Shown here in pieces: positions 2 to 22,910 of a stretch of 23,221 bases of DNA. The translations under genes and the position numbers were made by a program. The notes beneath the pieces were generated by a model. It did not search any database. It saw only the letters and a program-made list of their open reading frames with translations, and was not told where the DNA came from. Within the stretch, counting starts at the first letter, position 1. Each line of letters opens with the position of its first letter. Origin of the DNA: a virus; IMG/VR virus record IMGVR_UViG_3300013126_003460, positions 1-23,221 of that record. One strand, 5' to 3'.

Positions 2-733
2 GCAGCAGCGCCACCACCTGCACCAGAACCTGCCGCACCACCACCAGTAGATCCAATGGCAGCGGCAGCACCACCTGTTGATCCTATGGCAGGCGGAGCA
101 GCACCTGGACCAATGATACCAAATCCAGCAGCAGCCCCACCTATGATGGAGGGAAGGATGATGCACCGTATAGTAGATGAAATCTTTAGTCGAGTCAGTG
201 GCTTCTTCAATGAGAATAATGGTACATTTACTATTGGTGAAGAAGGGTTCGTTACCAAGATGTGTAAAGAGCTTAAGGAAAAATATCATATTGATCCAAA
301 ACATCCTAAATCAGAAATGTTTGATCGTATGGTGGAAGGTGCCTGTGCTCGTATTATGGAAAAGATGAAGCAAAAGCATCAAGCCGAAAGTGATCACGCA
401 CGTATGATTGAACTTGCTGGAATGATGCCAAATCAAGGTGTGGCGGAAGGCTCGGCATTTGACATTGATACCACCGGTTACACAAAGAATGATATGTCTG
501 TAATCAATCAAGAAATTAGTCAAATCAAAAAAATCCGTGCCAAGTTATTGAAGATACCAGGCTTTGTAAGAAAAGTCAGTGATGAAAAAAGTCAACTGCG
601 ATTGGCTGAAAAAATATTTAATCTAATGAAACGCGGTCAGACATTTGATAGTGCCTTGGTATTGGTTCAAAAGCAAGGTGTGGCGGAGGGTGATGAGTTA
701 GGTAGAGTATTAAAAATAGCGGGATTACGATAG
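2..733 (+). CDS. Pro/Ala-rich protein with QGVAEG repeats, 5' end cut off
   Basis: The reading frame is open from base 2, so the true start lies outside the window; the ATG at 56 has no ribosome site and sits inside a Pro/Ala-rich stretch that continues upstream in frame. The visible part begins with a low-complexity segment containing two copies of a PPVDPMA-type unit, followed by a predicted mostly helical region rich in Lys, Met and Glu. The peptide QGVAEG occurs twice, encoded at 434-450 and 674-690 by nearly identical DNA. Each copy lies close to a related short helix (RMIELAG before the first, RVLKIAG after the second). I recall similar QGVAEG peptides in predicted proteins of environmental T4-like phages, but I know no function. 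I do not recognise the family; a virion or scaffold role is possible but unsupported. It precedes gene 32 on the same strand. Confidence 0.75.
   Translation, partial: AAAPPPAPEPAAPPPVDPMAAAAPPVDPMAGGAAPGPMIPNPAAAPPMMEGRMMHRIVDEIFSRVSGFFNENNGTFTIGEEGFVTKMCKELKEKYHIDPKHPKSEMFDRMVEGACARIMEKMKQKHQAESDHARMIELAGMMPNQGVAEGSAFDIDTTGYTKNDMSVINQEISQIKKIRAKLLKIPGFVRKVSDEKSQLRLAEKIFNLMKRGQTFDSALVLVQKQGVAEGDELGRVLKIAGLR
434..450 (+). repeat. QGVAEG coding repeat, copy 1
   Basis: A 17-base unit encoding QGVAEG. It matches the unit at 674-690 at 16 of 17 bases and is read in the same frame. The two flanking bases upstream (aa, then one variable base) also agree. The identity at silent positions points to a copied DNA element rather than only a conserved peptide. 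Confidence 0.6.
674..690 (+). repeat. QGVAEG coding repeat, copy 2
   Basis: Second copy of the unit at 434-450, differing only at position 688 or its neighbour in the GAA/GAG codon, and again read as QGVAEG. It lies 14 codons before the end of the gene. Confidence 0.6.
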
Positions 734-861: not shown

Positions 862-1845
862 ATGGCAACTTTGGCAGAAATTAGGGCAAAACTTAAAGAG
901 CAAGAACTTAAAGGCGGCGCAACAGGAGGCGGAGACCTCACAATTTATCCCTTCTGGAACTTAAAAGAAGGTGGCGAAAGCACAGTAAGATTCCTTCCAG
1001 ATGGCGATTCAAGCAACACATTCTTTTGGGTAGAGCGTGCTGTAATTAAACTTGAATTCGCTGGAATCAAAGGTGAAACAGATAACAAAAAAGCAAGTGT
1101 ACAGGTTCCTTGTATGGAAATGTATGGCGAATCTTGCCCAATTCTTAATGAAGTGCGTCCTTGGTTTAAGGATCCCAACCTTGAAGCAATGGGTCGTAAG
1201 TATTGGAAAAAGCGTAGTTATTTGTTTCAAGGCTTTGTAGTGGAAGATGGTCTTAAGGAAGATACACTTCCAGAAAATCCTGTGCGTAGGTTCATTATTG
1301 GTCCACAAATCTTTACTCTTATCAAAGGTGCTTTGATGGATCCAGAGATGGAAGATCTACCCACTGACGTAGTTAATGGTGTAGATTTTAAACTGATCAA
1401 ATCAAGCAAAGGTGGTTATGCTGATTATGGTACAAGCAAGTGGAGTCGTCGTAGTCGTCCACTAAATGAGAAGGAACAAGCAGCATTAAAAGAGCATGGC
1501 TTGTTTAATCTTAAAGATTTCCTTCCAAAGAAACCCACTGAAGTTGAACTCAAGGTTATCAAAGAAATGTTTGAAGCCAGTGTAGATGGTGAAGCATTTG
1601 ATATGGAGCGTTGGGGTCAATACTACAAGCCCAGTGGTGCTAGTGCTCGTACTGGTGATCCAATGGCTACTGGTCGCAATAGTGATGTAGCAGTAGTAGA
1701 AGATCATGATGATGAAGAAGAAGCACCAAAAGTACAACCAAAAGCAGCATTAAAGGCTGTATCTAAAAATACAGACGAATCAAAGAGTACAGAAAGTCGT
1801 GCTGGTGACATCTTAGCAATGATCCGTAATCGCAACAAGCAATAA
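862..1845 (+). CDS. 32: Single-stranded DNA-binding protein, gp32 family
   Basis: A 327-residue protein (T4 gp32 is 301) that would coat single-stranded DNA at replication forks and in recombination and work with UvsX and UvsY. A short basic N-terminus (MATLAEIRAK) is followed by the OB-fold core, with the segment around Y114-V127 (YWKKRSYLFQGFVV) typical of marine T4-like gp32. The last ~50 residues carry a strongly acidic patch (DHDDEEE), matching the protein-interaction tail. Of the T4 zinc-site cysteines only two equivalents are evident, C84 and C92; the third position of CPxC is Leu. I chose the ATG at 862 because AGGAG lies at 850-854; an in-frame TTG at 799 would run through the hairpin tail and lacks a ribosome site. 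Confidence 0.93.
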   Translation: MATLAEIRAKLKEQELKGGATGGGDLTIYPFWNLKEGGESTVRFLPDGDSSNTFFWVERAVIKLEFAGIKGETDNKKASVQVPCMEMYGESCPILNEVRPWFKDPNLEAMGRKYWKKRSYLFQGFVVEDGLKEDTLPENPVRRFIIGPQIFTLIKGALMDPEMEDLPTDVVNGVDFKLIKSSKGGYADYGTSKWSRRSRPLNEKEQAALKEHGLFNLKDFLPKKPTEVELKVIKEMFEASVDGEAFDMERWGQYYKPSGASARTGDPMATGRNSDVAVVEDHDDEEEAPKVQPKAALKAVSKNTDESKSTESRAGDILAMIRNRNKQ

Positions 1846-1895: not shown

Positions 1896-2954
1896 ATGGC
1901 TACAAAGGCATTCGATTTAAGTAAATTTCGTAAAACATTAACAAAGAGCATTGATGGACTTGGTGTAGGCTTTAACGATCCTACTGACTGGGTCAGCACT
2001 GGCAATTATGCTCTAAACTATTTGATTAGCAGCGACTTTAAGAAAGGTGTACCTCTTGGTAAGGTAACTGTATTTGCTGGTGAGAGTGGTGCAGGTAAGA
2101 GTTATATCTGTAGTGGTAATTTGATTAAAAATGCTCAAGAACAAGGCATTTTTGTTGTATTAATTGACAGTGAAAATGCCTTGGATAAGGCATGGCTTGA
2201 AGCTTTGGGTGTTAGTACTGACGAGTCAAAACTTCTTAAGCTTAATATGGCAATGATTGATGATGTTGCTAAAACTATCAGTGAGTTTATGAAAGAATAT
2301 AAGGCTATGCCAGAAGATGCAAAGCCTAAAGTATTGTTTGTAATTGACAGTTTAGGTATGTTATTAACTCCTACTGATGTTGATCAGTTTGAGGCAGGTA
2401 ATATGAAGGGTGATATGGGACGTAAGCCTAAAGCATTAACCAGTTTGGTACGTAATTGTGTTAATATGTTTGGTAGTCACAATGTAGGTCTTGTCGCTAC
2501 TAATCATACATATGCTAGTCAAGACATGTTTGACCCAGATGATAAAATTAGTGGTGGTCAAGGGTTTATTTATGCGTCAAGTATTGTAGTTGCCATGAAG
2601 AAGCTTAAGTTAAAAGAAGATGAAGATGGTAACAAGATCAGTCAAGTTAAGGGTATACGTAGTGCCTGTAAGATTATGAAGACTAGATATGCTAAACCTT
2701 TTGAGAATATTCAAATTAAGATTCCTTATGAGACAGGAATGGATCCTTATAGTGGTCTAGTAGATTTATTTGAAGAAAAGGGTATCCTAGTACAGCAAGG
2801 TAATAGGCTTAAGTTCGTTGATAGTACTGGTAAAGAGCATTTATTTTACAGAAAAGAATGGAAAAGTGATAAATTAGATATGATAATGGCGGATTTCCCC
2901 AATATCAAAATCAAAGATGAAGTCATTTTAGAGGAAACTGTAGAACATGAATGA
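1896..2954 (+). CDS. uvsX: UvsX RecA-like recombinase
   Basis: A 352-residue strand-exchange ATPase of the RecA/UvsX family (T4 UvsX is 391), expected to form filaments on single-stranded DNA and drive recombination-dependent replication. Visible motifs are Walker A GESGAGKS at residues 62-69, the RecA-type segment DSENALD at 91-97 with E93 in the place of the catalytic glutamate, and Walker B VLFVID at 146-151. A DNA-loop-like stretch follows, from ATNHTY to SGGQGF. The start is supported by GGGAG at 1885-1889. The 3' end overlaps the next small gene by 8 bases, and UvsY follows two genes later, the expected functional grouping. Confidence 0.95.
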   Translation: MATKAFDLSKFRKTLTKSIDGLGVGFNDPTDWVSTGNYALNYLISSDFKKGVPLGKVTVFAGESGAGKSYICSGNLIKNAQEQGIFVVLIDSENALDKAWLEALGVSTDESKLLKLNMAMIDDVAKTISEFMKEYKAMPEDAKPKVLFVIDSLGMLLTPTDVDQFEAGNMKGDMGRKPKALTSLVRNCVNMFGSHNVGLVATNHTYASQDMFDPDDKISGGQGFIYASSIVVAMKKLKLKEDEDGNKISQVKGIRSACKIMKTRYAKPFENIQIKIPYETGMDPYSGLVDLFEEKGILVQQGNRLKFVDSTGKEHLFYRKEWKSDKLDMIMADFPNIKIKDEVILEETVEHE

Positions 2955-8986: not shown

Positions 8987-9207
8987 TAGATTTAGATCAA
9001 CTAGAACTTCGTGATTTACAAAAAGAAGCAGCCAGAGCATTGAGTATTATGAAAGCTACTAACAATAACATATACAAATATAATATACAAGCTTACCATA
9101 ATAGTCAAAATTGGTTCAAAGCTGTAATTAAAGATTACATAGATCAATATGGAGGGTTACCAAGTAAAATAGGACCTGCCAATTCAATAAAACTTATTTT
9201 AGATTAA
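8983..9207 (+). CDS. Small unknown protein before the first radical SAM gene
   Basis: A 74-residue protein with no recognised domain. It looks helical (LRDLQKEAARALSIM, WFKAVIKDYIDQYG), with a Gly/Pro turn (GGLPSKIGP) and a hydrophobic tail. It overlaps the preceding gene by 4 bases and its TAA shares one base with the next ATG (TAATG), so it is translationally coupled to the radical SAM gene. It has no signal peptide and no cysteine. It could be a partner or accessory protein of that enzyme; a substrate peptide is conceivable but not shown. Confidence 0.7.
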   Translation: MIDLDQLELRDLQKEAARALSIMKATNNNIYKYNIQAYHNSQNWFKAVIKDYIDQYGGLPSKIGPANSIKLILD

Positions 9208-10379
9208 TGCTTTATACTTACAATCAAATAAAAACAGTACATTTAGAAGTTACAGATTCTTGTAATGCTTCTTGCCCTATGTGCGCCCGTAATATTAATG
9301 GTGGGGAAGATAACCCGCAGTTGCCAAATACTGAGCTTTCTATAGAAGACATAAAGAAAATTTTTGATCCTAAATTTATAGCACAATTAGAACGCATATA
9401 CATGTGTGGAAATTACGGAGATCCTATAGCTGCTAAGGATACGTTAGAAATATTTGAATATTTTAGGAAACATAATGACAAGATTATGTTAAGTATGCAT
9501 ACTAATGGTTCAGCTAAAAAACCAGAATGGTGGTCAAAATTAGCTAAAGTATTAGGGAGAAAAGGCTATGTAATTTTTAGTATAGACGGTCTTGAAGATA
9601 CTAACAATCTTTATAGACAAAATACTATATGGTCTAAAATAATGGCCAATGCTGAGGCTTTTATTGAAGCAGGTGGACGAGCTAGATGGGATTATATTGT
9701 ATTTGCTCATAATGAACATCAAGTAGAAGAAGCAAAGGAATTAGCAAAAAAAATTGGCTTTGAAAAATTTCAGTATAAAAAATCTGCTAGGTTTTTTAGC
9801 AATGTAAGTGGCATGACTAAGGAAATGCATCAAGCAGCTAATAGAAAAGGTATGCCTACAACTTTACTACAAGCACCATTAAATAACAAGTATAGAAACT
9901 CTGCATTAGAAGAATTAGGAAAAATTTCTAAGCAAGAGGAACCAGTTAAATTCTTGCCTAGTCAGCAAAAAGAATTAGAAAATTATTCTTATCCTCAAGT
10001 TTTCCATAAAGACAATGATAAAAAGAAACCAATGGAAAAGTTTTGGGATCAAGTTCCTATTAAATGTAAGGTTGCAGAAGAAAAAAGTCTATACATAAGT
10101 GCCGAAGGTATAGTTCAGCCATGTTGTTGGACTGCTGGACAAATGTATGTTTGGTATTGGACTCCAAAAGGAGGACAGATATGGGAATTAATTGATCATG
10201 TCGGAAAAGACAACCTTAATGCAAAATATCATAATCTTGAATCTATTGTTAATGGTGAATTTATACAAGACTTAATACCGAATAGTTGGACTAAACCTAG
10301 TTGTGCTGATGGAAAATTGGCTATATGTGCTAAAACTTGTGGAACAAAATATGATGCATTTGCGGAGCAATTTAAATGA
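9207..10379 (+). CDS. Radical SAM enzyme with C-terminal SPASM-like cluster
   Basis: A 390-residue radical SAM protein. C19-x3-C23-x2-C26 (SCNASCPMC) binds the catalytic 4Fe-4S cluster that cleaves SAM to a 5'-deoxyadenosyl radical; YGDP at 70-73 stands where GGEP usually is. The C-terminus has extra cysteines C287, C306, C307, C366, C374 and C378, a SPASM-like auxiliary cluster domain as in peptide- or sugar-modifying members. The spacing C-x18-CC is nearly the same as that found at the N-termini of four later radical SAM proteins of this window. The start is the shared TAATG with the previous gene. The substrate is unknown. Confidence 0.88.
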   Translation: MLYTYNQIKTVHLEVTDSCNASCPMCARNINGGEDNPQLPNTELSIEDIKKIFDPKFIAQLERIYMCGNYGDPIAAKDTLEIFEYFRKHNDKIMLSMHTNGSAKKPEWWSKLAKVLGRKGYVIFSIDGLEDTNNLYRQNTIWSKIMANAEAFIEAGGRARWDYIVFAHNEHQVEEAKELAKKIGFEKFQYKKSARFFSNVSGMTKEMHQAANRKGMPTTLLQAPLNNKYRNSALEELGKISKQEEPVKFLPSQQKELENYSYPQVFHKDNDKKKPMEKFWDQVPIKCKVAEEKSLYISAEGIVQPCCWTAGQMYVWYWTPKGGQIWELIDHVGKDNLNAKYHNLESIVNGEFIQDLIPNSWTKPSCADGKLAICAKTCGTKYDAFAEQFK

Positions 10380-11542
10380 ATGATACAGTGTGTCAAGTTG
10401 CATGGAAAGAGTTATATATTAATCATACAGGCAAGTTTAGGAATTGTTGTATACAACAAGAAAGTTATGAAGAAAGTGATTTTTTATCATCAGTTGATCC
10501 TAATCAATGGTTTAAGGAGCAGAAAAATTTAAAAGATTTACGAATCCGATTGATACAAAATGAAAAGCCATTTACATGCTTAAAGTGTTGGAAATTAGAG
10601 GAAGAAGGATTAAGCTCTTATAGATTAAATTGGAATGAACAATATAAAAAAGAAAATAATCAAGATCTTAATGAAAGGATTGAGATTATAGATCTTAGAT
10701 TAGGTAACAGATGCAATTTAAAATGTAGAATGTGTAATACCATGTGGAGTGATCAAATAGGCAATCTATATCAGGAAGCTAAGATGTCCGGGATAGTAAA
10801 TTCTTTGAATAGAACTTTTACTCTTGGTACAACTAAAAATGATGAAAATTTTTTAAATGACCTTTTTTATTTTTGTAAGAATACAAAAACAATAAAAGAA
10901 ATTAAATTTGCCGGTGGCGAACCTTTTATTATGGAGGATGTAGAGGAATTTATATTTCGTTTAGTAGAAAATGGTATGACTGATATTAAGTTATCATTAT
11001 TAACAAATACTACAGTAGTTAAATCTTCGGTAGTAAAGGCTTTAGAAAAGTTTAAATCTACACATATACAATGTAGTATTGATGGAGTAGGAAAGGAAAT
11101 AGAATATCAAAGATATCCTTGCAAATGGGAAGTTATAGAAAGAAATTTTATTAAATTATATAACAGTACACTTACAGTTAACCTAACTCCCTGTTGGTCA
11201 CATTTAAATCTTTCTAGTTTACCTGATTTTCTTAATTGGGCAAGTCAGTTTCCTAAATCTCATATTGCTTATAATGAAGTAAACTTTCCTACATATTTTG
11301 ACTTTCGATTAATTCCTTTAGATTTTAGACAACCGATAATAAAAAAAATAAAAGAATCTAGTAAGCCTTTAAAATTACATAAAGACTATGAGATATTTTT
11401 TAAAAATATTGAATATCAGTATAGACTTATAAACGTAGATGAAGTAAGTCAGCTTAAGGATGCAATTGAAATTTGGAATTTTTCTAATCCTGTAAGATAT
11501 CAAGACAGATATCCATGGGCAGATTTATTACTAAATATCTAA
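10376..11542 (+). CDS. Radical SAM enzyme with N-terminal cysteine module
   Basis: A 388-residue protein. Its first ~75 residues hold an auxiliary cysteine set: C6, C24-C25, C68 and C71. The radical SAM core follows with C113-x3-C117-x2-C120 (RCNLKCRMC) and AGGEP farther on. The N-terminal module resembles a SPASM/twitch cluster placed before, instead of after, the core. It has an ATGA overlap with the preceding radical SAM gene. After its stop comes the only real gap of the island, so it may end the first transcription unit. Reaction and substrate are not apparent; related architectures in environmental phages are annotated only by domain. Confidence 0.88.
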   Translation: MNDTVCQVAWKELYINHTGKFRNCCIQQESYEESDFLSSVDPNQWFKEQKNLKDLRIRLIQNEKPFTCLKCWKLEEEGLSSYRLNWNEQYKKENNQDLNERIEIIDLRLGNRCNLKCRMCNTMWSDQIGNLYQEAKMSGIVNSLNRTFTLGTTKNDENFLNDLFYFCKNTKTIKEIKFAGGEPFIMEDVEEFIFRLVENGMTDIKLSLLTNTTVVKSSVVKALEKFKSTHIQCSIDGVGKEIEYQRYPCKWEVIERNFIKLYNSTLTVNLTPCWSHLNLSSLPDFLNWASQFPKSHIAYNEVNFPTYFDFRLIPLDFRQPIIKKIKESSKPLKLHKDYEIFFKNIEYQYRLINVDEVSQLKDAIEIWNFSNPVRYQDRYPWADLLLNI

Positions 11543-11559
11543 TTAATGAAATCGTCAAA

Positions 11560-11588
11560 TAGATCTTAATTTACCTAATAAAGATCTA
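11560..11588 (+). terminator. 8-bp hairpin in the island's only gap
   Basis: TAGATCTT (11560-11567) pairs perfectly with AAGATCTA (11581-11588) across a 13-base loop, followed by ACTTATTTT. The gap 11543-11609 is the only non-coding stretch over a few bases between 4325 and 21065. The hairpin could be a weak terminator or a processing site that separates the island into two units. No clear promoter box is visible in the gap. Confidence 0.4.
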
Positions 11589-11609
11589 ACTTATTTTAAA
11601 ACGGAAATT

Positions 11610-13013
11610 ATGAAATATCCTAGTCAAACCTTTTGTATTTTACCATGGATACATTTATCCACTAGACCAGATGGAAGTATGAGAGTATGTTGCACAGCTA
11701 ACGCTAGTGGAGTTGGCCCTAGTAATGATAAAAAAATTGGAGGACCACAGGTTGGTGTTATCAAAGATGAATTTGGATTACCTAGTAATTTAAATGTTAC
11801 AGATTTTCAAACAGCTTGGAACAGTACTTATATGAAGAATGTTCGTAAACAAATGTTAGCTGGAGGAAAACCTCCTAGTTGTTTGAAATGTTTTAAAGAA
11901 GAAGATTCCGGGCATAACAGTAAAAGAATGTGGGAAACTGAATATTGGAGTCAACGTGTTAATGTTGAGAAGTTAATTGAACAAACTGCTGAGGATGGAA
12001 GTGTACCACCACACTTGAACTATATTGATCTACGTTTTGGTACAAAATGTCAGTTAGGTTGTATAATGTGTAGTCCTCATGATAGTAGTGGTTGGATTAA
12101 AGATTGGCAAGCAATTTATCCGACTATAGAAAACGAGGGTGTTCGTAAAATATGGCAATGGGATAATAAAGGTAGTATTAATGGAAGTAGCTATAATTGG
12201 CACAAACAAAATCCTACATTTTGGCAGCAATTTTATGAACAAATTCCGAATATGCAACAAGTTTATTTTGCAGGTGGAGAGCCTTTGATAATAGACGAGC
12301 ATTATGAAATACTAGAAGAGATAATACGTCAAGGTCGTGCTAAAGATATTGAAATACGTTATAACAGTAATGGTGTAGAATGGAGAGATGATTTATTTGA
12401 TTTATGGAAACATTTTAAGATAGTACGATATCATTATAGTGTAGATAGCATAGGTTCAATGAATGAATATATTCGTTATCCTAGTAAATGGAAACGTACT
12501 GAGGAAGTATTTCGTATTTTAGATGAGCAAACAACCGATAACGTTGAAGTGACTATTGCCTGTGCTGTACAAGCATTAAACATTTATTATATTCCAGATT
12601 TTTTACGTTGGAAACTATCACAAAATTTTAAAAAGGTAAACATGTGGCCGTTAGGAGCAGGGGGAATAAATTACCATTTCGTCTACTGGCCAGCATTTTT
12701 AAATGTCAAAGTATTACCTAAATGGTTTAAAGATGAATGTGAACAAAAATATGAAGAATTTATTACTTGGTTTGAAGAAAATTGGGAGCTCTGTTTATCG
12801 GAAAGAGACAGAGGTATTGTGCGTAAAGAATCTTGGCTAAAAAATAGTTATGGTATAAAAAGATTAAGAGGAATGATATCATTCATGAAAAGTGAGGACT
12901 GGAGTCAGCGACTACCAGAAATGAAAGATTATTTAGAAAAAATTGATATTCATAGAAATATCAATTTTTATGATACTTTTCCAGAAATGAAAAACATATT
13001 TAAGGAACAATAA
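11610..13013 (+). CDS. Radical SAM enzyme with N-terminal cysteine module, long form
   Basis: A 467-residue protein, the longest of the group. The N-terminal module has C9 (FCILPW), C27-C28 (MRVCC), then C91-x2-C94 followed by FKEEDSG. The radical SAM site is C147-x3-C151-x2-C154 (KCQLGCIMC), with AGGEP beyond it. The C-terminal ~100 residues add a helical region with many Trp and Glu. It shares FC-x2-PW and CFKEEDxG with the protein at 14659-15885, so these two are closer to each other than to the others. It begins after the 67-base gap and ends one base before the oxygenase gene. No substrate can be named. Confidence 0.88.
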   Translation: MKYPSQTFCILPWIHLSTRPDGSMRVCCTANASGVGPSNDKKIGGPQVGVIKDEFGLPSNLNVTDFQTAWNSTYMKNVRKQMLAGGKPPSCLKCFKEEDSGHNSKRMWETEYWSQRVNVEKLIEQTAEDGSVPPHLNYIDLRFGTKCQLGCIMCSPHDSSGWIKDWQAIYPTIENEGVRKIWQWDNKGSINGSSYNWHKQNPTFWQQFYEQIPNMQQVYFAGGEPLIIDEHYEILEEIIRQGRAKDIEIRYNSNGVEWRDDLFDLWKHFKIVRYHYSVDSIGSMNEYIRYPSKWKRTEEVFRILDEQTTDNVEVTIACAVQALNIYYIPDFLRWKLSQNFKKVNMWPLGAGGINYHFVYWPAFLNVKVLPKWFKDECEQKYEEFITWFEENWELCLSERDRGIVRKESWLKNSYGIKRLRGMISFMKSEDWSQRLPEMKDYLEKIDIHRNINFYDTFPEMKNIFKEQ

Positions 13014-13014
13014 T

Positions 13015-14049
13015 ATGTATAAATCTATACACGGGGATCCTATAAACTTAAACCCAATTAGAAAAGATTTAAAACAATTTAAAAGTCATTGGGCATCAGA
13101 TAATAAGTTACCTACATATGAATCATATATGCCAGACTTATCTAAGGAATATGCTCGTGACGGAATGAGGAAAAATTTCAGCCCAGCATATGTTTCAAAT
13201 GTTGAATTTGATGAAGATGAGCTTTCTTGGATGTATGGGTTTGCTTTTACTGGTTGTCATAATGTAAGACATAATGCAAATGGAACAATTTTTATCAGTG
13301 GTAACTTAGATATCGTTGCAACAAAATTTTTAGATAAACTAGAAAAAATATTGCCAGGATGTTCAGAAAGTCCTTTGGTAGGAGGTAATTTTTTAATAAC
13401 TCCTACGCAATATGGATTACATAATGATAGTACACGTAGATCAGATTGGGAAAGAGGTTTAAAGGATATTTCTGAGGAAAGTTCTGAAAGAAGATTTGTT
13501 CCTTGGAAAAACATTTTAATACCAATGTGGATAGGCAATTCTCCTAATACTATCAGTCATGGTGTTTGGTTTGAGCAACGACATGTTGATTTCGCTCATG
13601 TTTATTTTCATGGAGGGGAAAATGTTAAACAGCCTGCTACAACATATCCTATTATCCATGACCATGCTTCTATTGATTTTTATAATTCTAATGGAGATTT
13701 AATTCCTAGAGAGAATAATTTAATACCTTACAATAATGATCATTATGCTCAATATCTATCTTATACTCCTAAAAAACGTTTAACAGGTTTGACATCGGAG
13801 CTTATTGTTGAATGGAAGCCAGGAGTTCCATTTGTGTTTGATGCTGTTCAATTACATGCTACAAACAAAGGAACAACCTCTTTAACAAAATATCTTGTTA
13901 TGTCAGATAGAAAAGAGGGTAATAAGTCAAGCTATAGAAGGTTTAGTTCAAATGATGTGACTAATGATATATCTGCTACTATTGATGAGAAAGAAGAATG
14001 GGATATTAAGATGGGGTTATTATTAACTTTTCTAAAGGAGATTAAATGA
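13015..14049 (+). CDS. 2-oxoglutarate/Fe(II) oxygenase candidate
   Basis: A 344-residue protein with the marks of a double-stranded beta-helix 2-oxoglutarate dioxygenase: YGLHNDS supplies H136-x-D138, and AVQLHATNKG supplies the distal H281, followed by K292, which may bind the 2-oxoglutarate carboxylate. A large insert (about residues 140-270) lies between the two halves of the site, longer than usual. Such enzymes hydroxylate or otherwise oxidise a substrate in the cytoplasm. It begins one base after a radical SAM gene and overlaps a second oxygenase by 4 bases, suggesting successive steps on one product. Binding residues are inferred by pattern only. Confidence 0.65.
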   Translation: MYKSIHGDPINLNPIRKDLKQFKSHWASDNKLPTYESYMPDLSKEYARDGMRKNFSPAYVSNVEFDEDELSWMYGFAFTGCHNVRHNANGTIFISGNLDIVATKFLDKLEKILPGCSESPLVGGNFLITPTQYGLHNDSTRRSDWERGLKDISEESSERRFVPWKNILIPMWIGNSPNTISHGVWFEQRHVDFAHVYFHGGENVKQPATTYPIIHDHASIDFYNSNGDLIPRENNLIPYNNDHYAQYLSYTPKKRLTGLTSELIVEWKPGVPFVFDAVQLHATNKGTTSLTKYLVMSDRKEGNKSSYRRFSSNDVTNDISATIDEKEEWDIKMGLLLTFLKEIK

Positions 14050-14669
14050 AATTTTCAGAAGTTCGTATATCTGAAAGAGGGTGGGTTAAATTAAAGTTTA
14101 CTCCTCCGCAACAGGCATTAAATGAATGGAATACCATTAAACATCTAGCTAAACATCACAGAATGGATTACGGAAAAGGATGGATGAGTCTAACATTACA
14201 TGGAATGAAGCCACATTGGACTGAAGCGATTGATAGATATCCAGGTTATAAAGATGAATTAGATTGGGAAATAGATTATCATTGGACTGAAATAGCAGAA
14301 TATTGTCCAGAAACTGTGAATTTTGTTAAAACTTTGCCTTTTACTAAACTACATAGAGTTAGATTCATGTACCTTAGAGCAGGTGGTTTTATAGATTATC
14401 ATAGAGATTCAGATCATATGAATCTTACCCCAATTAATATTAGTATTAATAACCCAACAGCCTGTGAATTTAAGTTTTATAAAAATGAAAAATTTTACAC
14501 TAAAGTCCCTTTTGAAAATTCTAGTGCATTTCTTGTAAACATCGGTTTAAATCATAGGATTGATAATCATAGTAACCAAGATCGTCTTCATATGATAGTG
14601 CATGGGCGATATAATCAAGATTTTGAGAATAATTTTTTAAATTATGTTGAGGAAATGCATGAAATCTAA
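14046..14669 (+). CDS. Aspartyl/asparaginyl beta-hydroxylase-like oxygenase
   Basis: A 207-residue protein resembling the Asp_Arg_Hydrox (aspartyl/asparaginyl beta-hydroxylase) family of 2-oxoglutarate/Fe(II) enzymes. The motif DYHRDSD gives H119-x-D121, GLNHRIDN gives H170, and QDRLHMIVHG gives R180 for the 2-oxoglutarate carboxylate, with the typical INNPTACEF segment between. Members of this fold hydroxylate side chains of proteins or free amino acids. The start overlaps the preceding oxygenase by 4 bases (ATGA), and its last bases contain the ribosome site and start of the next radical SAM gene. The target is unknown; a peptide side chain would fit the family. Confidence 0.78.
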   Translation: MKFSEVRISERGWVKLKFTPPQQALNEWNTIKHLAKHHRMDYGKGWMSLTLHGMKPHWTEAIDRYPGYKDELDWEIDYHWTEIAEYCPETVNFVKTLPFTKLHRVRFMYLRAGGFIDYHRDSDHMNLTPINISINNPTACEFKFYKNEKFYTKVPFENSSAFLVNIGLNHRIDNHSNQDRLHMIVHGRYNQDFENNFLNYVEEMHEI

Positions 14670-15885
14670 AACATTTTGTGTAATGCCATGGAATAGTTTA
14701 GCAACGAATGCTTCTGGAGTTTATCGAATTTGTTGTAATAGTACTCCAGGAAAAAACACTATTAAAAATGAGAAGGGGGAGGCATTAAAAATTCATATGC
14801 ATTTGCCTAGTGAAATATGGAATACCTATACTTATACTAAAATAAGACAGCAAATGTTAGATGGTGAAAGACCAGAAATGTGCAGTCGTTGTTTCAAAGA
14901 AGAAGATGCAGGCATTGAATCTGCAAGAGTAAATTGGAATAAAAAATGGTATAAACAGGATAAAGAATATAAAGTATTTGAAGAACCAGATATTCAATAT
15001 GTTGATCTAAGATTAGGAAATTTATGCAATTTAAAGTGTAGAATGTGTAATCCTTATAGCAGTAATCAGTGGGTAGAAGAATGGAATAAAGTAGTTACTA
15101 AAGCTGAGTTAGTACCAAATTTTCCAATTAATGATGAAGAGTCAAAACGACTTACTAATATGACTTGGCCTAAAAATGAAAAAACATGGAAAAGTTTGAT
15201 TGAAATAGCTAATACTATTGAAGAAATATATTTGACTGGTGGTGAGCCAACCCTTGCTATAGAACAGTATAAACTCTTTGATATTTTAATAGAACAGAAT
15301 TTGACTAAAAAAATAAAGTTAAAATATAATACTAATTTAACAAATATTCCTAAAAAAATGTTAGAATATTGGGAGCATTTTAAAAAAATACAGATTAATG
15401 CAAGTATTGATGCATTTGGTGAATTAAACAGATATATTAGATATCCAACTGCATGGTCTAGTGTAGAAAAAAATATAAGTAGATTTGTTGAAATGCCTAA
15501 TGTCGAAGTACAATTACATTGTACTGTTCAAACATATAATATTTTGAATCTTTCTGATCTTTTTAATTGGATGAAAAAGTATAAAACAATTAAGCTTTAC
15601 TTAAATATTTTGAATCATCCACGAAGTTTAAATATACAAGTTTTACCAAAAGAATTAAAAGAGCTTGCAGAACAAAGACTTTCTGCACATTTAGATCTTC
15701 CAAAAGTTAAAGAAGTTATAAATTATATGTGGGCAGAGGATTTTACTAAATATTTAGAAGAATTTTTTAACTATAACGAAACACTGGACAATTTACGTGG
15801 TCAAGACTTTTATTCATTAGTACCAGAATTTATTTCTTATAAAGAAAAGAGAAAGTATGGATTGGAAAACGATAATAAAAAATAG
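14659..15885 (+). CDS. Radical SAM enzyme with N-terminal cysteine module
   Basis: A 408-residue protein. N-terminal module: C7 (FCVMPW), C25-C26 (YRICC), C75-x2-C78 with FKEEDAG. Radical SAM site: C123-x3-C127-x2-C130 (LCNLKCRMC), then TGGEP. I prefer the ATG at 14659 to the in-frame ATG at 14644 because it follows GAGGA at about 14649 with normal spacing and its N-terminus (MKSKTFCVMPW) aligns with the protein at 11610. It overlaps the hydroxylase by 11 bases and the next gene by 29 bases, the largest overlap so far. It is very similar in layout to the 11610 protein but lacks ~60 residues. Confidence 0.87.
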   Translation: MKSKTFCVMPWNSLATNASGVYRICCNSTPGKNTIKNEKGEALKIHMHLPSEIWNTYTYTKIRQQMLDGERPEMCSRCFKEEDAGIESARVNWNKKWYKQDKEYKVFEEPDIQYVDLRLGNLCNLKCRMCNPYSSNQWVEEWNKVVTKAELVPNFPINDEESKRLTNMTWPKNEKTWKSLIEIANTIEEIYLTGGEPTLAIEQYKLFDILIEQNLTKKIKLKYNTNLTNIPKKMLEYWEHFKKIQINASIDAFGELNRYIRYPTAWSSVEKNISRFVEMPNVEVQLHCTVQTYNILNLSDLFNWMKKYKTIKLYLNILNHPRSLNIQVLPKELKELAEQRLSAHLDLPKVKEVINYMWAEDFTKYLEEFFNYNETLDNLRGQDFYSLVPEFISYKEKRKYGLENDNKK

Positions 15886-16907
15886 AAAAAATACTTATAG
15901 CTGGAGTTCAAAAGTCCCTGATAAGTCCTTAATAGATAAAATTGTTGACGAAATTCATGAATTTTGTCCAAGTAAACAAAAAAAGGTTCCTTTTTATTTA
16001 GATGTTTTGCCAAACTTTGAATATAATCATGATCAGGATGCTTTTCATTTACTATTAAAATCAAAAAAAGGAAATTGGCGATTTGGTAATCAACTTTATT
16101 GAAAATCAGATTATTGAAAAAAAGGTAATATTCATAGGGTATATTTACGATCAATTAAAATGTTATCGTGATATATCATATGTTATTTCAGCGTATGCTA
16201 ATGATATAAGATTTTTATCAAATAAGTCAACATTAGAAATGGCCAAAGGGTATTGGATCGACGGCACTCCTCAGGTTAGACTATTCGCCGAAATAGTTGT
16301 TCATAAATTTATAAAAAGTACTTTAGTTGAAATTTTTTTAAAAAATAATATAAATCAATCAACGATTGATCATTTAGTATCATTATGTGACATAATAATA
16401 AATGTTTTAGAGTATGGTTTAAATAGTTTACCTAAAGAAAAAGTAACCACAAATAGTTTACGTCATGATATTTTTTTAGGTACAGATAGAACAGGAAACG
16501 GGTTTGCTAATGATTTGAGAAATCCCCAAGTATTAGCTCCTTATTTGTTTGTTTTTAGTCAAAGAACTTTAAATGAAGCTGACATAAATTTGAATATAGA
16601 AATAAAGGATCCTATTAAGGCTAGAAATTTTAGTAAAAATGAAATTGGATTAGCAAGTATGTTTACTGTTTTTAGTGCTACTAATTTAGGGTTAGATACT
16701 GGATTTTGTGCTTGTATCAGAAACGGGAATCAAATTGGAAATAGATTAGGACATAATGATCCCGTACTATTATATATAGGAATTGGATATTCTAGTAAAG
16801 AAAAAATATATTTTAATCCAGTAATACATGAATATCTTAGTATACCAGATAGTGATTATGATGTCAGACCTAATTTAGATACACATTATAAGTTTATAAC
16901 ACCATGA
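15857..16907 (+). pseudogene. Nitroreductase-like gene interrupted by a frame change
   Basis: Two reading frames together look like one flavin nitroreductase-fold protein of about 349 residues. The first, 15857-16102 (81 aa), starts MDWKTIIKNRKNTYSW, the usual N-terminal Arg-rich region. The second frame is open from 16059 to 16907 and holds NPQVLAPYLF, NEIGLASMFT and LLYIGIGY, typical of the core and C-terminus. The second part has only a TTG at 16083 and no ribosome site. The frames overlap at a run of seven A (16063-16069); removing one A joins them as LLLKSKKEIGDL. Causes could be a real mutation, a sequencing error or +1 frameshifting. If intact, it would be an FMN-dependent oxidoreductase. 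The family call is moderate, since the middle is divergent. Confidence 0.65.
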
Positions 16908-18124
16908 AACACTTAGTTTGTAGTAAAATGTGGACTGATATAAACATATCAGTTCCAAAAATGGAATTTAGAAATTGTTGTAAACGAGAAATCCAACCTA
17001 TTACTATCGAAGAGATAAAAGAATTGGGTCCTGAGGTATTTGTAAAGAACTATCACCTTATGGAGGACAAAAAGTATTTTATTGAGAAAAATCAATTACC
17101 AGAAAAATGTAAATATTGTAAAGATGTTTGGCCTAATAGTATATGGAAAAATTGGAATGAATGGCAATCTAAAGATTGGTCAAAAGATGAATTAGAAAAT
17201 TTACTTAACGAAGATAGGACTACATATATTGAGTTAATGTTATCTACTACATGCAATCAAACTTGTATGTATTGTACATGGGAAGTTAGTAGTCTTTGGG
17301 CAGAGGTACATAATAAACAAGTATCTAAGAATCAAGAATGGAAGGAAGCTGTATTATATGCTCTTTATCAATATATTGAAAAATATCAAGTTAATAGAAC
17401 ATCTAGATTAGTGTATAATTTTTTAGGTGGCGAACCTTTTTTAGACTTAGAACTTCTGGATGTAATTAAAAAAATACTACTTATACACAAAGAACCTAAA
17501 CGGCCAATTATAATTAATATTACATCTAACCTAAATGTTAAATCAAAAGTTATAGAGAATTATTTAGAGATAATAAAAAATAATAAAGATTTTACTTGGT
17601 CATTAAGTGCTAGTATTGATGCAATTGGAACAGTTGGTGAAGAACTTCGTGATGGTTTAAAAATAGAAAGATTTAAAGAAAATTTAGAACTCTTAATTTC
17701 AAGCAAATTAATATCTCATATTGATATATTACCAAGCGTTAGTTCGATAAGCATACCAGAATATCCAGAATTAATTAGATGGATTAAAAATATTATGTAT
17801 AAACATGGTATTTTAAATCAATACGGCAGTCTTTGGTCATTGGGAGTAAATGTAGTTACTTGGCCAGAGGGTCTGCATCCTGGTACCCTACCTAATAGTT
17901 ATAAAACATACATTGATGAATGTGAAAAAGAAATTATGGATCTAAATAATCACTATATGAAAAAGCAGTTGATGATTCATTTTCAAAATTTAAGAAATAT
18001 GATTGGAACAAGAAGAAGTGATATAGACAAACATAGAATTAATACTTATTTTCAAGAACATTCTCGATTAAAAAATAAAGATTATTTCAAAATATTTCCA
18101 ATTGTTAATGAATTAATAAAATGA
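16904..18124 (+). CDS. Radical SAM enzyme with N-terminal cysteine module
   Basis: A 406-residue protein. N-terminal module: C6, C25-C26 (FRNCC), C69-x2-C72. Radical SAM site: C117-x3-C121-x2-C124 (TCNQTCMYC), followed by LGGEP. Aromatic residues after the cluster (WEVSSLWAE) and the C-terminal HxGTLP-like segment differ from the other family members, making it the most divergent of the four with this architecture. It overlaps the nitroreductase-like gene and the next gene by 4 bases each. It does not contain the FC-x2-PW start of the 11610 and 14659 proteins. The substrate is unknown. Confidence 0.87.
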   Translation: MKHLVCSKMWTDINISVPKMEFRNCCKREIQPITIEEIKELGPEVFVKNYHLMEDKKYFIEKNQLPEKCKYCKDVWPNSIWKNWNEWQSKDWSKDELENLLNEDRTTYIELMLSTTCNQTCMYCTWEVSSLWAEVHNKQVSKNQEWKEAVLYALYQYIEKYQVNRTSRLVYNFLGGEPFLDLELLDVIKKILLIHKEPKRPIIINITSNLNVKSKVIENYLEIIKNNKDFTWSLSASIDAIGTVGEELRDGLKIERFKENLELLISSKLISHIDILPSVSSISIPEYPELIRWIKNIMYKHGILNQYGSLWSLGVNVVTWPEGLHPGTLPNSYKTYIDECEKEIMDLNNHYMKKQLMIHFQNLRNMIGTRRSDIDKHRINTYFQEHSRLKNKDYFKIFPIVNELIK

Positions 18125-19542
18125 ATACACCATCTACCCACTCTATAAATTTTATAACCAATAAGAATGAAAGAAAAAATTCCATTATTTACATTTTTTG
18201 GAATGATTGGTTTACTAATAATAGAAAGTATAACAATAATTTTAATTTTGCAAACGAATTGATGGCATTTACTAATAGTTGTTCAAATAGTAATTTAAAC
18301 CATAATTTTAATAAAATTATAACTTATAATTTAGAGGAAGCTATTGACTTAGCAAGTGATGCTGGGTTTCCATATGCAATAGTTCAAACTCCTGGGCATG
18401 TGATAATGTCAAACTTTGATAGTACTATTAGAGACTATCTTTGGTCTATAAATACTGATTGGTCTGTAATAGGTCATATATTAAATTTTAAAAAGTATAA
18501 TAGTTGGTTAACTTTACATGATCAATGCTTTGTGTTGAATCTTAAGCATGTTAATTTTGTGGGGAGTAATATAGGGTATCCAGATAAAGGTGTGAGATTA
18601 TTTCCTGATTATACACCAAGTGAAGAAAACTTTCATGATGACTATACACCAAAAACAATTGAATTTAATGAAAAGTATTTTAGAACTGGTGGATATGGGT
18701 TAGGATGGAAATGGCTAAGCTATGGGCTAATCAATAACAGCATTCGTACATTTAATAATGACATTAGGAATAAAAAAATTCATTTATATCCAGAAAATCC
18801 AGGAAATCAGGAAGCGTGGTATAATGAAAATTCTGTTAGTGATGAAAACCAATTAAAGAAAATTGTAAAACAATTTAAAGTAAGTGATCCAAGGCAACAT
18901 GTTTTTAATAATGAAAATGTTTTTCCAGGATTGCCTAATATTATAAAAGATAAAATAGAAAATGTAGTAGTAGCGGCCAGTGGGTTTTATGGAATGCAAG
19001 TTTCTAAACTATTAAATGCAAAAAATGTTTATTACTATGATCAAGATTTATCTTTACTTAATTTCAGAGAAAGATTAAATTTGGAATGGAATGGAAAGGA
19101 TCCTATTCATAATTATTATTCAAAAGATATGATTGTCTTTAATGAAAATGCATTGCCTAGAATAAATGCAATAGATGGCCATATAATAAAAGATCAAAAT
19201 GATTTTGATTTATATTTTCAAGAATTTAGAAGGTTACCTAAATTTTATCAACAAGTAAACATTATCAATGAATGGGAAAAATTTTATAATTTTATACCAA
19301 AGGATGGCTCAACATATATATGGTTGGACAGTATATATACTTACTGGTATAATTTATGGCATTTTAGACCTAGCTTAATTCAAAATAGTTTTATATCTTT
19401 AATTCATAAGTTGCAATCTAAGAAAGACCCAATTTGGATTAATGTAAAAGAGCCGTCTGGGCAATATAGAATATTTGAAGTACATAATTATTGCTCAGAT
19501 TCTTTACAAATGCTTTTTAGTCGATATGAGCACTTTTCCTAA
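18121..19542 (+). CDS. GT-like domain fused to a Rossmann methyltransferase-like domain
   Basis: A 473-residue protein that appears to have two domains. Residues ~20-230 contain PYAIVQTPGHVI, SVIGHIL, LHDQCFVLNLK (132-142) and HDDYTP (172-177), a block pattern I recall in phage proteins that look like GT-A glycosyltransferase folds, although no clear DxD is seen. After a linker, residues ~275-473 begin with NVVVAASGFYG (281-291) and YYYDQD with D307, a SAM-type Rossmann start. It may couple sugar transfer and methylation. It overlaps both neighbours (4 and 17 bases). Fold assignment of both parts is tentative; the N-terminal domain could be inactive or bind something else. Confidence 0.6.
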   Translation: MNTPSTHSINFITNKNERKNSIIYIFWNDWFTNNRKYNNNFNFANELMAFTNSCSNSNLNHNFNKIITYNLEEAIDLASDAGFPYAIVQTPGHVIMSNFDSTIRDYLWSINTDWSVIGHILNFKKYNSWLTLHDQCFVLNLKHVNFVGSNIGYPDKGVRLFPDYTPSEENFHDDYTPKTIEFNEKYFRTGGYGLGWKWLSYGLINNSIRTFNNDIRNKKIHLYPENPGNQEAWYNENSVSDENQLKKIVKQFKVSDPRQHVFNNENVFPGLPNIIKDKIENVVVAASGFYGMQVSKLLNAKNVYYYDQDLSLLNFRERLNLEWNGKDPIHNYYSKDMIVFNENALPRINAIDGHIIKDQNDFDLYFQEFRRLPKFYQQVNIINEWEKFYNFIPKDGSTYIWLDSIYTYWYNLWHFRPSLIQNSFISLIHKLQSKKDPIWINVKEPSGQYRIFEVHNYCSDSLQMLFSRYEHFS

Positions 19543-20107
19543 AATTTTAGTAGCAGGTAATAAGAATTACGGTTTATCAAAAGAGATATGGAAAATATAT
19601 CCTGATACTTTTTTTGCTAGTAGAACTACAGGTTTTGATCTTACAAACAGTAAAGATCAAACTAAGTTAGCAGAATCAATTATAAATTATGATATTTTTA
19701 TTAATTGTAGTGCTTTATGGAAGTTTAATCAAACGGTTTTATTAGACTTAATATATAAAAAATGTATAGAAAATAAGCATAAACCATACATAATATGCAT
19801 AGGATCAACTACTGATAGAGTAAAAAAAGGTGGATCTTGGTTATATAATGCAGAAAAAAAAGCACTAAGGGATTATTGCAATACTTTAGGAATGAATGGT
19901 GTATGGGACAATGGGCCTAAAATTACATTAATAAGTTTTGGCAGTTTAACGAATGTTCAAGATAAGCATCCAAATAGAACATGCCTGCCTATAGAGGAAG
20001 CAGCTAAATATATTAAATGGTTAATAGATCAACCTAGTTATTTATGTATTAATGAAATAAGTGTAGACCCTATTCAAAATTTTATTTATGATAGAAAAAA
20101 TAAATAG
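19526..20107 (+). CDS. Short-chain dehydrogenase-like protein
   Basis: A 193-residue NAD(P)-binding Rossmann protein of the SDR type. ILVAGNKNYGLS (7-18) stands for the TGxxxGIG loop in degenerate form, FINCSAL (58-64) for the NAG strand, S94 in CIGSTTD for the catalytic Ser, and Y107-x3-K111 (YNAEK) for the catalytic pair. At 193 aa it is short for the family (about 250). I chose the ATG at 19526, which begins just before the first beta-strand; starting at 19475 adds a tail that overlaps the previous gene more deeply. It may oxidise, reduce or epimerise a sugar intermediate. The altered glycine loop makes activity uncertain. Confidence 0.7.
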   Translation: MSTFPKILVAGNKNYGLSKEIWKIYPDTFFASRTTGFDLTNSKDQTKLAESIINYDIFINCSALWKFNQTVLLDLIYKKCIENKHKPYIICIGSTTDRVKKGGSWLYNAEKKALRDYCNTLGMNGVWDNGPKITLISFGSLTNVQDKHPNRTCLPIEEAAKYIKWLIDQPSYLCINEISVDPIQNFIYDRKNK

Positions 20108-20837
20108 TAAATTTGGAATAATAAATTCATCAGATATTAGACAACTTATGGCCGTATCTTCATTAATTGAGGAAGGTCCTATTTTAGAAATTGGGACATG
20201 GCTTGGTAAGAGTGCATACGTAATAGCTTGTTCTAAAAAGGAAAATGTGATCATTCATTGTGTGGATCCATTTATGAGTGATTTTGATAACACATATCTT
20301 TATCCAAAAGCTTTATTGACTAAGTATTATCTAGATTATTGTAGTAACTTAGACTTCGAGTATATTAAACATTTAGAAAACATGATAGTAGAAAACTCTG
20401 GAGATAACTTACCAGCGGTTAAATTTCAATTGAAAGAATATCTAGATTCAATAGTATTTCATAGATGTAAAAGTCAAAATTTTTCTCTGGATTTTTCCCC
20501 TCAATTTGCCTTTATTGATGGTGGGCATAGTTATGAAGAATGTTACAGTGATTTAAAAAAGGTAATTGTCTATGAGGAATGTTTAATACTTGTTCATGAT
20601 TATGATATACCAGATGTCAGGGAAGCTTGTCATATGATAATAAAAGAATATAAAAGATATTTTGTTAAATGTAATAAAAACATGTTTTATATACTTGATA
20701 AAGAAATGAAATATAAGGATAAGGTATTAGGCATTGTATCTAAAGAGAAAAAAATAAAAGAGTTAGAATACGAGCAATCAATGATTAGAATTTTAATGGA
20801 AAAAAAGGTAAAAGATGAAACTTACTATATTCGGTGA
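20088..20837 (+). CDS. Class I SAM methyltransferase (Methyltransf_24-like)
   Basis: A 249-residue protein. ILEIGTWLGKSA (32-43) is a good SAM-binding motif I, HCVDPF (57-62) supplies the ribose-binding acid, and FIDGGHSYEEC (142-152) plus LVHDYDIPDV (168-177) are characteristic of the Methyltransf_24/cephalosporin-hydroxylase-like group, often found in sugar and capsule clusters. The last ~45 residues are a Lys/Glu-rich helix, possibly coiled coil, and overlap the following tiny gene by 23 bases. The start overlaps the SDR gene by 20 bases. The substrate is not apparent; methylation of a sugar hydroxyl would suit the context. Confidence 0.8.
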   Translation: MIEKINSKFGIINSSDIRQLMAVSSLIEEGPILEIGTWLGKSAYVIACSKKENVIIHCVDPFMSDFDNTYLYPKALLTKYYLDYCSNLDFEYIKHLENMIVENSGDNLPAVKFQLKEYLDSIVFHRCKSQNFSLDFSPQFAFIDGGHSYEECYSDLKKVIVYEECLILVHDYDIPDVREACHMIIKEYKRYFVKCNKNMFYILDKEMKYKDKVLGIVSKEKKIKELEYEQSMIRILMEKKVKDETYYIR

Positions 20838-20994
20838 TAGTTTTGGAGATGATCATTTTCTATGGCCAAGATATTATAAAGATGTTGGACCTTCATGGAT
20901 TGAGTATGTCGCCGAAAAGACAAATTATGAAATTGATACTATTAGAGGTAAAGATTTTTATTTTAATAAATTAGATACACTTGAGAATAAATGA
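20815..20994 (+). pseudogene. SGNH-hydrolase-like N-terminal fragment 1
   Basis: A 59-codon frame, too short to be a whole enzyme, beginning MKLTIFGDSFGD. The GDS motif with a preceding beta-strand is block I of SGNH/GDSL hydrolases, carrying the catalytic Ser; WIEYVAEK then matches the first helix of the phage versions. Blocks with the catalytic Asp and His are missing, and the frame ends at a TGA at 20992. Either it is the remnant of a truncated acetyl-esterase-type gene or a chimera of collapsed cassettes. It overlaps the methyltransferase by 23 bases. Confidence 0.55.
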
Positions 20995-21065
20995 AAATTG
21001 GAATTTACGGCGATAGCTATGCTGATTACAACTACACTCTAGGTAATAAAAAAAATTGGATATAA
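20991..21065 (+). pseudogene. SGNH-hydrolase-like N-terminal fragment 2
   Basis: A 24-codon frame starting on an ATGA overlap with the fragment before it. It reads MKIGIYGDSYAD, again the strand plus GDS block I of an SGNH hydrolase, then stops at TAA (21063-21065) before any other conserved block. It is a second, independent beginning of the same kind of gene, with a different sequence, directly next to the first. The next gene starts five bases later. Confidence 0.5.
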
Positions 21066-21069
21066 ACAT

Positions 21070-22305: not shown

Positions 22306-22910
22306 TGTTCTAATTGTGTACCATTTTCACTACGTAGTTCAATATAATGCACCCAACTACGAATAGTTCCATTCATATATAACTTACTTTCCATTATACC
22401 CTCAGGCAATACAGCACGAGCCTGTTCTTTGGCTATGCCGTTATTAACAGCCCAAGTGTAGGCTTTTCTTGCAGCCTTAATGACTTCTTCTTGTTGTTGA
22501 ATCCATTGTTCTCTAAGTACACTATGTTCGATGGTAGCATCAAGTTCAATACTGTTCTGTCTATTTTTGGTGTCCTGCAAGCGGGCTTCTCTAAGTACGA
22601 ACGAGAGGTCCTTAGTAGGGTCAGCATATCGCTGGCTGAACTCTTGGAAACTGAAACTTCTGTGTCTGAGTATCTGTCTGGCAATGTCTCTTGTTGTGGT
22701 AATTTCGAGACAGGCACTGACCATTTCCAGTGGGCTCCAGTGTTTGTGCTCAACCAAGTATTTGATGAGTCGTTGGCTTGTGTCTGTGTTGAGTTGATTG
22801 CTTGGATTGGAGACACGGGCGCAGAAAGCAATAAGGTCCTGCGCATCCTCGATACCAAGAGATCTAAGTTCCTCAGTGGGTTCTGAACTGGAGATAAGTT
22901 TAACATTCAT
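22236..22910 (-). CDS. thyX: Flavin-dependent thymidylate synthase ThyX
   Basis: A 224-residue ThyX, which makes dTMP from dUMP with methylene-tetrahydrofolate, FAD and NADPH, supplying thymidine for phage DNA. The signature RHRx7S is exact: R82-H83-R84 followed by S92 in RHRSFSFQEFSQRY. Family features around it also fit (HWSPLEM near residue 57, RAVLPEG and a C-terminal QLEHQEIA). Length is normal. Its ATG at 22910 overlaps the TGA of the upstream minus-strand gene (22907-22909), forming a two-gene unit. Its 3' end overlaps the convergent radical SAM gene by 70 bases. G+C content is higher than in the island, as expected for a long-term phage gene. Confidence 0.95.
   Translation of the reverse strand: MNVKLISSSEPTEELRSLGIEDAQDLIAFCARVSNPSNQLNTDTSQRLIKYLVEHKHWSPLEMVSACLEITTTRDIARQILRHRSFSFQEFSQRYADPTKDLSFVLREARLQDTKNRQNSIELDATIEHSVLREQWIQQQEEVIKAARKAYTWAVNNGIAKEQARAVLPEGIMESKLYMNGTIRSWVHYIELRSENGTQLEHQEIAVACASVIAKVFPLVSDFK

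Follow-up and report, generated by a model that had tools for sequence, protein, structure and literature searches.

Why should one gene of a virus contain the same short piece of DNA twice, in the same reading frame? The question is raised by IMG/VR virus record IMGVR_UViG_3300013126_003460, a 23-kb record of which positions 1 to 23,221 were analysed (this whole stretch is called the window), where the open reading frame (ORF) at 2-733 includes two copies of a 17-base unit of the pattern CAAGGTGTGGCGGA(A/G)GG. As the initial annotation had reported, the copies are spaced 240 bases apart, match at 16 of 17 bases and are both read, in the frame of this open ORF, as QGVAEG:

434-450, plus strand: unit 1, CAAGGTGTGGCGGAAGG, encoding QGVAE|G; predicted site of the head protease (cleavage between 448 and 449) and joint for recombination
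674-690, plus strand: unit 2, CAAGGTGTGGCGGAGGG, encoding QGVAE|G; cleavage predicted to fall between 688 and 689

In the shuffled window only 0.33 matches to the unit are expected, even at three mismatches, and these shuffles, together with the reversed-pattern control given below, rule out chance as the origin of the unit. We consider it probable that the genes bearing this unit, here called carriers, specify internal-head polyproteins of T4-like, often giant, uncultured phages, and that the DNA of the protease site doubles in them as a joint for recombination.

Searching viral contigs with the exact pattern CAAGGTGTGGCGGARGG, we found it in at least 120 stretches, many with two to four copies, against a single match for the reversed pattern. 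The unit is not confined to orthologs of one gene at fixed positions, since it lies in about 126 ORFs, where its flanks differ. The statement in the initial annotation that many environmental phage proteins contain this peptide is also borne out. Contigs bearing the unit reach 300-374 kb, and in them it mostly occupies a single place or a few. Among distinct copies (up to two mismatches), 334 of 335 lie on the sense strand, in frame 0 and within ORFs of at least 90 amino acids, the remaining one being at a contig edge; a dispersed signal of the uptake or Chi type was rejected on the basis of this confinement to one frame and to the sense strand of ORFs. Across 1.77 Mb of fetched loci, a set in part fetched by the unit itself, the unit was the only independent 16-mer with at least 10 contexts distinct on both sides (192 contexts), and 88 copies lie in 39 of the 118 loci that were not so fetched. 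Spread in cellular genomes was likewise rejected, as 84,980 such genomes (257 Gb) yielded 83 loci with one copy each in scattered taxa, which is about chance level. At up to two mismatches the unit was absent from four related or homologous isolates (Vibrio phage 2.275.O, Sinorhizobium phage Phosso, S-RIM8 and P-SSM2), and no mention of QGVAEG was found in the literature searched.

The copies agree as DNA and not only as peptide. When one seed copy per ORF is set aside, 75 of 94 QGVAE copies have identical bases at all four silent positions in CAA GGT GTG GCG, where 0.9% would be expected from the codon use of the ORFs, in which GCG makes up 11% of alanine codons. As a control for seed bias, loci were fetched by two neighbouring modules (A and B) instead of by the unit, and of the 23 junctions obtained in this way that read GVAE, 19 carry GGTGTGGCGGA. 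Because the silent sites agree, also at the junctions fetched by module, the DNA of the unit must itself have been copied, as had been proposed from the window alone; recent descent may be the source of most of this identity, and the unit varies by one to three bases at many joints. The accompanying proposal of a small in-frame mobile unit stands as far as copied DNA and a protein-embedded repeat family are concerned, but the 17-mer is the joint and not the thing that moves.

What moves are whole cassettes: the 17-mer links modules of about 40-150 amino acids that can be exchanged, and tracts of homology stop at it. In pairwise comparisons of carriers, internal homology ended inside a unit in 39% of cases on the left and 33% on the right, compared with 5% for random positions, and 22 pairs of unit-to-unit cassettes were found at 80% identity or more. 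These cassettes are present or absent, duplicated or swapped among carriers. Locus L114 has the order A-unit-B and L076 the order A-unit-X-unit-B; between the two loci identity is 96% in A and 92% in B, the flanks are unrelated, and the extra cassette X of 318 bp is bordered by units on both sides. L063 has one cassette in two genes at 99.4% identity, and L106 has two tandem copies of a cassette related to the one in L014. Altogether 208 internal modules (median 69 amino acids) fall into 153 clusters, 121 of them singletons. Identical joins were found under different metagenome numbers (L027/L049, L017/L086, L094/L116 and L110/L118).

The window itself shows one such cassette, in a gene with the following parts:

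2-733, plus strand: C-terminal part of the carrier gene, for a putative virion structural protein; open ORF with its 5' end outside the window, directly upstream of the gene for a gp32-type single-strand DNA-binding protein
170-427, plus strand: conserved resident part before the variable slot, ending ...ARMIELAGM, from the ortholog alignment
434-673, plus strand: cassette of unit 1 and module, 240 bp or 80 codons, an in-frame unit-to-unit segment; orthologs have other modules in this slot
689-733, plus strand: conserved resident C-terminus GDELGRVLKIAGLR, from ortholog comparison, similar to the gp22 C-terminus of related contigs (IKRLAGL)

Sixteen orthologous loci were found, with the gene upstream of gp32 and a protein of about 730-890 amino acids at full length. 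Query residues 1-86 are 72-95% identical in the orthologs and divergence starts at the unit; conservation runs up to RM(I/L)EL(A/S)G and resumes at the C-terminus ...LKIAGLR, with the slot in between. The slot is filled by unit-module-unit in the window, by QDVAEN/D and another module in L220/L221 (where the DNA at the position of unit 1 is CAAGATGTGGCGGAA, read QDVAE), by a segment starting QQEERKTMSQ in L222/L223 and by DQGA(A/E)E in L226/L227. The sequence at the 3' border is GVAE|GDELG in the window and NVRE|GDELG in L220, the DNA being the same from GGTGATGAG onward, and the slot borders of several relatives are also compatible with x-x-E sites. Since the orthologs hold other inserts and the DNA beyond the 3' border is identical, positions 434-673 are one cassette in a variable slot. 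The R-x-x-x-x-A-G helices that the initial annotation had placed near the units do exist, RMIELAG before unit 1 and RVLKIAG after unit 2, but the orthologs identify them as resident gene sequence outside the repeated unit. The module of the window has one weak partial relative in the viral contigs searched and so stays an orphan. No match to the window protein was found among known phage isolates; two orthologs match phrog_13484 ("virion structural protein, head and packaging"; E 5e-15 and 3e-14), and relatives farther removed are structural proteins from PA5oct-like phages.

Concerning the end of this gene, the window protein terminates in LKIAGLR (692-733) and the gp22 scaffold proteins of L013 (790-1887) and L031 (5430-6515) in I(A/D)IKRLAGL. 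Such a C-terminus was matched by 19 of 1067 ORFs, several carriers among them, and might possibly act as a second core-targeting signal.

The junctions follow a rule at the level of the peptide, and one spelling of it in DNA is dominant. Diverged junctions read, for example, QGVSEG, KSVSEA, QDVTEA, QGVTEN or TSMNES, with DNA unlike the unit in most; because they keep the pattern around glutamate (E) with other DNA, the peptide rule extends beyond the DNA unit. All 45 junctions of module B have E at the expected P1 position or no more than one residue away from it, and nearly all have V or M at P3 and G, A, S, N or D after the E, the exact unit being present in 4 only, and the motif was found in 17 of 19 junctions of module A. 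With GVAEG masked, the density of the motif is 2.0 per 1000 amino acids in carriers, compared with 0.3 for the reversed motif and 0.2 in controls. The main form is (Q/K/E)GVAE|G, and decayed forms have V/M/I-x-E before a small residue. In T4, the prohead protease gp21 cleaves after L/I-x-E (PMC9026906), and A-x-E sites for the head protease of SPN3US, as well as cutting after E in phiKZ, are described in PMC5694885. T4 internal proteins are packed by means of a short N-terminal capsid-targeting sequence that is removed at such a site (PMC9026906, PMC5694885). The unit most likely specifies the cut site of a phage head protease.

The N-termini of carriers and the genes around them are of a kind consistent with this prediction. 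Many carriers have N-termini of T4 type, such as MRATEFIIE|GVAEG in L077 (N-terminus MRATEFIIEGVAEG), MRAQEFITE, MRAHEFIVE, MRFTEFISE, MKINEIITE and MKTLREYINLIES, and a loose form of the signal was found in 82% of 82 complete carriers and in 39% of 494 neighbouring ORFs, the expressions used being loose and the neighbours matching partly since many truly carry the signal. The carrier proteins are less unrelated than the initial annotation put it: many of them have these capsid-targeting N-termini in common, and the joint is compatible with a prohead-protease site. In the cyanophage S-RIM8, a gene adjoining a carrier-module homologue starts MKSYNEFISE. One contig of 300 kb contains 8 signal-led genes by a strict expression, about six of which look genuine, and "dozens" of such genes per genome are thus unsupported in this contig. 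The head protease gene gp21 (PF03420) was detected in 5 of 25 contigs (5 of the 7 exceeding 110 kb) and in 5 of 10 contigs of a second set; of these ten carrier or sister contigs, five also have the major capsid gene gp23, and the gp22 scaffold gene is present in carrier contigs too. The capsid protein is closest to those of Vibrio phage 2.275.O, Phosso and GAP32, and in capsid proteins I/C-L-E|N and L-x-E sites lie near the start of mature gp23 in T4. In L013, L031 and L050 the carrier comes just after gp23, with one putative homing-endonuclease gene between them.

As to the modules themselves, GNAT, 5'-nucleotidase and ParB-like matches were obtained in some carriers and most modules have no match. 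An embedded peptidase domain was found in none of six large carrier ORFs scanned, and a PADLOC search of the material returned nothing. Two module families are predicted to fold alone (mean pLDDT 85 and 87), and a fold search of both against PDB gave no significant match.

About 30 genes near carriers (loci L001-L120) also start in the MRAxEFIxE manner (MRA[STQK]EFI[TVIS]E) and are candidates for injected proteins; some of them are presumably ADP-ribosyltransferase-like (YHFT, FHYT). Genes of a putative homing-endonuclease type, directly after gp23, lie at L013:3241-3984, L031:7870-8589 and L050:1959-2678 and in L213 and L215, some of them beside a carrier.

We propose that a carrier gene would consist of a capsid-targeting leader followed by modules of about 40-150 amino acids, split by (Q/K/E)GVAE|G or its decayed forms. 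The precursor would be pulled into the prohead core, a gp21-type protease would cleave after each E, and the freed peptides would be packaged and then injected with the DNA; the cassette of the window would release the predicted peptide GSAFDIDTT...VQKQGVAE. With the common spelling of the site being one DNA word, AGCAAGGTGTGGCGGAAGGC, in a constant frame, recombination between any two copies could add, drop or swap a module, and such exchanges would stay in frame because the unit always lies in one frame. Since T4 recombination works at microhomology of 6-10 bp (PMC9391042), a shared word of 17-21 bp would be ample, and we infer UvsX-type recombination to be the engine. The modules would probably be effectors, for which anti-defence is a natural guess because each of the T4 proteins IP1-3 inhibits a type IV restriction enzyme (PMC12373910).

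Several observations weigh against this proposal. Cleavage, packaging and injection of the modules are predictions from sequence, P3 is mostly V here and T4 gp21 prefers L/I, 2 of the 19 junctions of module A are without the motif, and the loose signal expressions, as noted above, also match many neighbours. The gp21 gene was seen in only some contigs, many of which are fragments, and a gp21-type protease was not found within the 23-kb window, itself a fragment. The carrier at L111:7468-10377 has at its start, ahead of its cassettes and ParB-like modules, a domain of 5'-3' deoxyribonucleotidase-like type (phrog_2643, E 2e-22). A typical capsid-targeting N-terminus was not found in the orthologs of the window gene, which start MSANFERIAIDLGRQLQTRFPSL and MSANFERIAIDLGRQ; as the orthologs are without this signal and the 5' end lies outside the window, we do not file the window gene as a typical internal protein, and its link to the head comes from phrog_13484 and the phage type. 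Finally, in cassette pairs silent changes amount to 11.6% in units versus 20.9% in modules, a modest gap; constant homogenisation is consequently not required, and we do not claim strong upkeep of the unit at the DNA level.

Other explanations of the unit were weighed against the same data. QGVAEG could be an uncleaved linker between the domains of large, polyvalent-type injected proteins, its DNA identity arising from recent domain shuffling only; the modules do look like separate domains, two families folding alone as noted, and phages are known to have polyvalent proteins of 2-15 domains (PMC5512222). We regard this as unlikely, as a linker leaves unexplained the near-invariant E, the hydrophobic P3 and the small P1' at diverged junctions, as well as the N-terminal capsid-targeting signals of the same type and the excess of the motif over its reversed form. 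It is also unlikely that these phages have a dedicated system of sub-gene cassettes, in which a phage enzyme acts on a fixed DNA word, injected effector domains are traded across genes and species much as genes are traded by integrons, and the same word encodes the cut that releases them. A dedicated site-specific system, with the unit recognised by a phage recombinase or a homing-type endonuclease that moves the cassettes in the manner of an integron integrase or of homing enzymes, would fit the reuse of one DNA word and the genes of putative homing-endonuclease type that adjoin gp23 and carriers; we nevertheless give it little credence, because the unit varies at many joints by one to three bases and shows no palindrome on inspection by eye, we saw no enzyme gene that consistently accompanied it (no systematic search for one was made), and T4-type phages recombine at microhomology of 6-10 bp without special sites (PMC9391042).

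Selection on the peptide, with codons fixed by translation or RNA signals and no role in recombination, could draw on a purine-rich, Shine-Dalgarno-like stretch in the unit (GGCGGAAGG). Codon use predicts 0.9% silent-site identity and 80% was observed, with GCG a minor alanine codon (11%); start codons are not enriched downstream of the unit, other versions of the motif use other codons, and breakpoints fall at units. We therefore think this very improbable, and codon bias or an internal start site was rejected on the silent-site excess and the lack of downstream start-codon enrichment. Assembly chimeras, finally, might be suspected from the size of the unit with its flanks, about 21 bp, which is that of a small assembly k-mer. 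They are disfavoured because the same joins recur in contigs of different metagenome numbers; in addition, the repeat itself would have to exist in hundreds of contexts, and the window has two units in a slot where orthologs hold other inserts, all of which makes this explanation extremely improbable.

Repeats and cassettes of other kinds provide a first comparison. The Rickettsia RPE is an in-frame palindromic repeat found in many genes in one frame, and integrons gain and lose cassettes at a shared sequence; unlike these, the present unit is 17-21 bp long, has no palindrome and is not self-mobile, and its cassettes are sub-genic and read through. If carriers are, as we think probable, polyproteins of the head interior cut at their joints, they resemble the T4 internal head proteins (IPI, IPII, IPIII and Alt), which begin with a short targeting signal that stops at a gp21-type site; the signal is conserved and the protein behind it highly diverse, and the same phages encode gp21, gp22 and gp23. 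The T4 IPs are injected anti-restriction proteins (PMC9026906, PMC3012670, PMC12373910). They are, however, single proteins with one cut and with L/I at P3 of the gp21 site, whereas carriers have up to about nine cut-like joints per ORF, one reused DNA word and V at P3, their cleavage and injection being predicted. Polyvalent proteins (Iyer et al. 2017, PMC5512222) share with carriers many domains in one polypeptide and strong mosaicism, with GNAT and ParB-like matches in some carriers, and are thought to be packaged and injected; some have embedded peptidase domains that free their parts, in contrast to carriers, with small, mostly orphan modules and predicted sites for an outside (head) protease. 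In SPN3US and phiKZ the head protease likewise recognises a short motif, with cleavage following E, and ejection proteins are among those processed; there it mainly removes propeptides from individual proteins, and the passages of PMC5694885 consulted describe neither a shared DNA word nor cassette exchange.

Should the polyprotein proposal be true, T4-like giant phages would carry changeable magazines of injected peptides, and the placing of cut site and joint on one DNA word would explain how domains are traded in frame without loss of processing. In practice, ORFs split at GVAE-type sites, combined with the MRAxEFIxE signal, would give a list of many small orphan domains as candidate anti-defence or host-takeover proteins.

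Downstream of the carrier gene, the window encodes two proteins of DNA metabolism:

862-1845, plus strand: gp32-type single-strand DNA-binding protein (phrog_1192, E 1e-60)
1896-2954, plus strand: UvsX/RecA-type recombinase (phrog_97, E 3e-68; PF00154, E 6e-15)

Because both lie just downstream of the carrier gene, we attribute the window to a T4-like phage, and the product of the recombinase gene could drive homologous exchange at the units. Farther along, the region 9207-22305 contains six radical SAM genes (9207-10379, 10376-11542, 11610-13013, 14644-15885, 16904-18124 and 21070-22305, one of them under the Pfam cut-off) and among them an Asp/Asn-hydroxylase-like gene (14046-14669), a modification-type cluster that is unusual for a T4-like phage. 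A ThyX-type thymidylate synthase is encoded on the minus strand at 22236-22910 (PF02511, E 5e-44).
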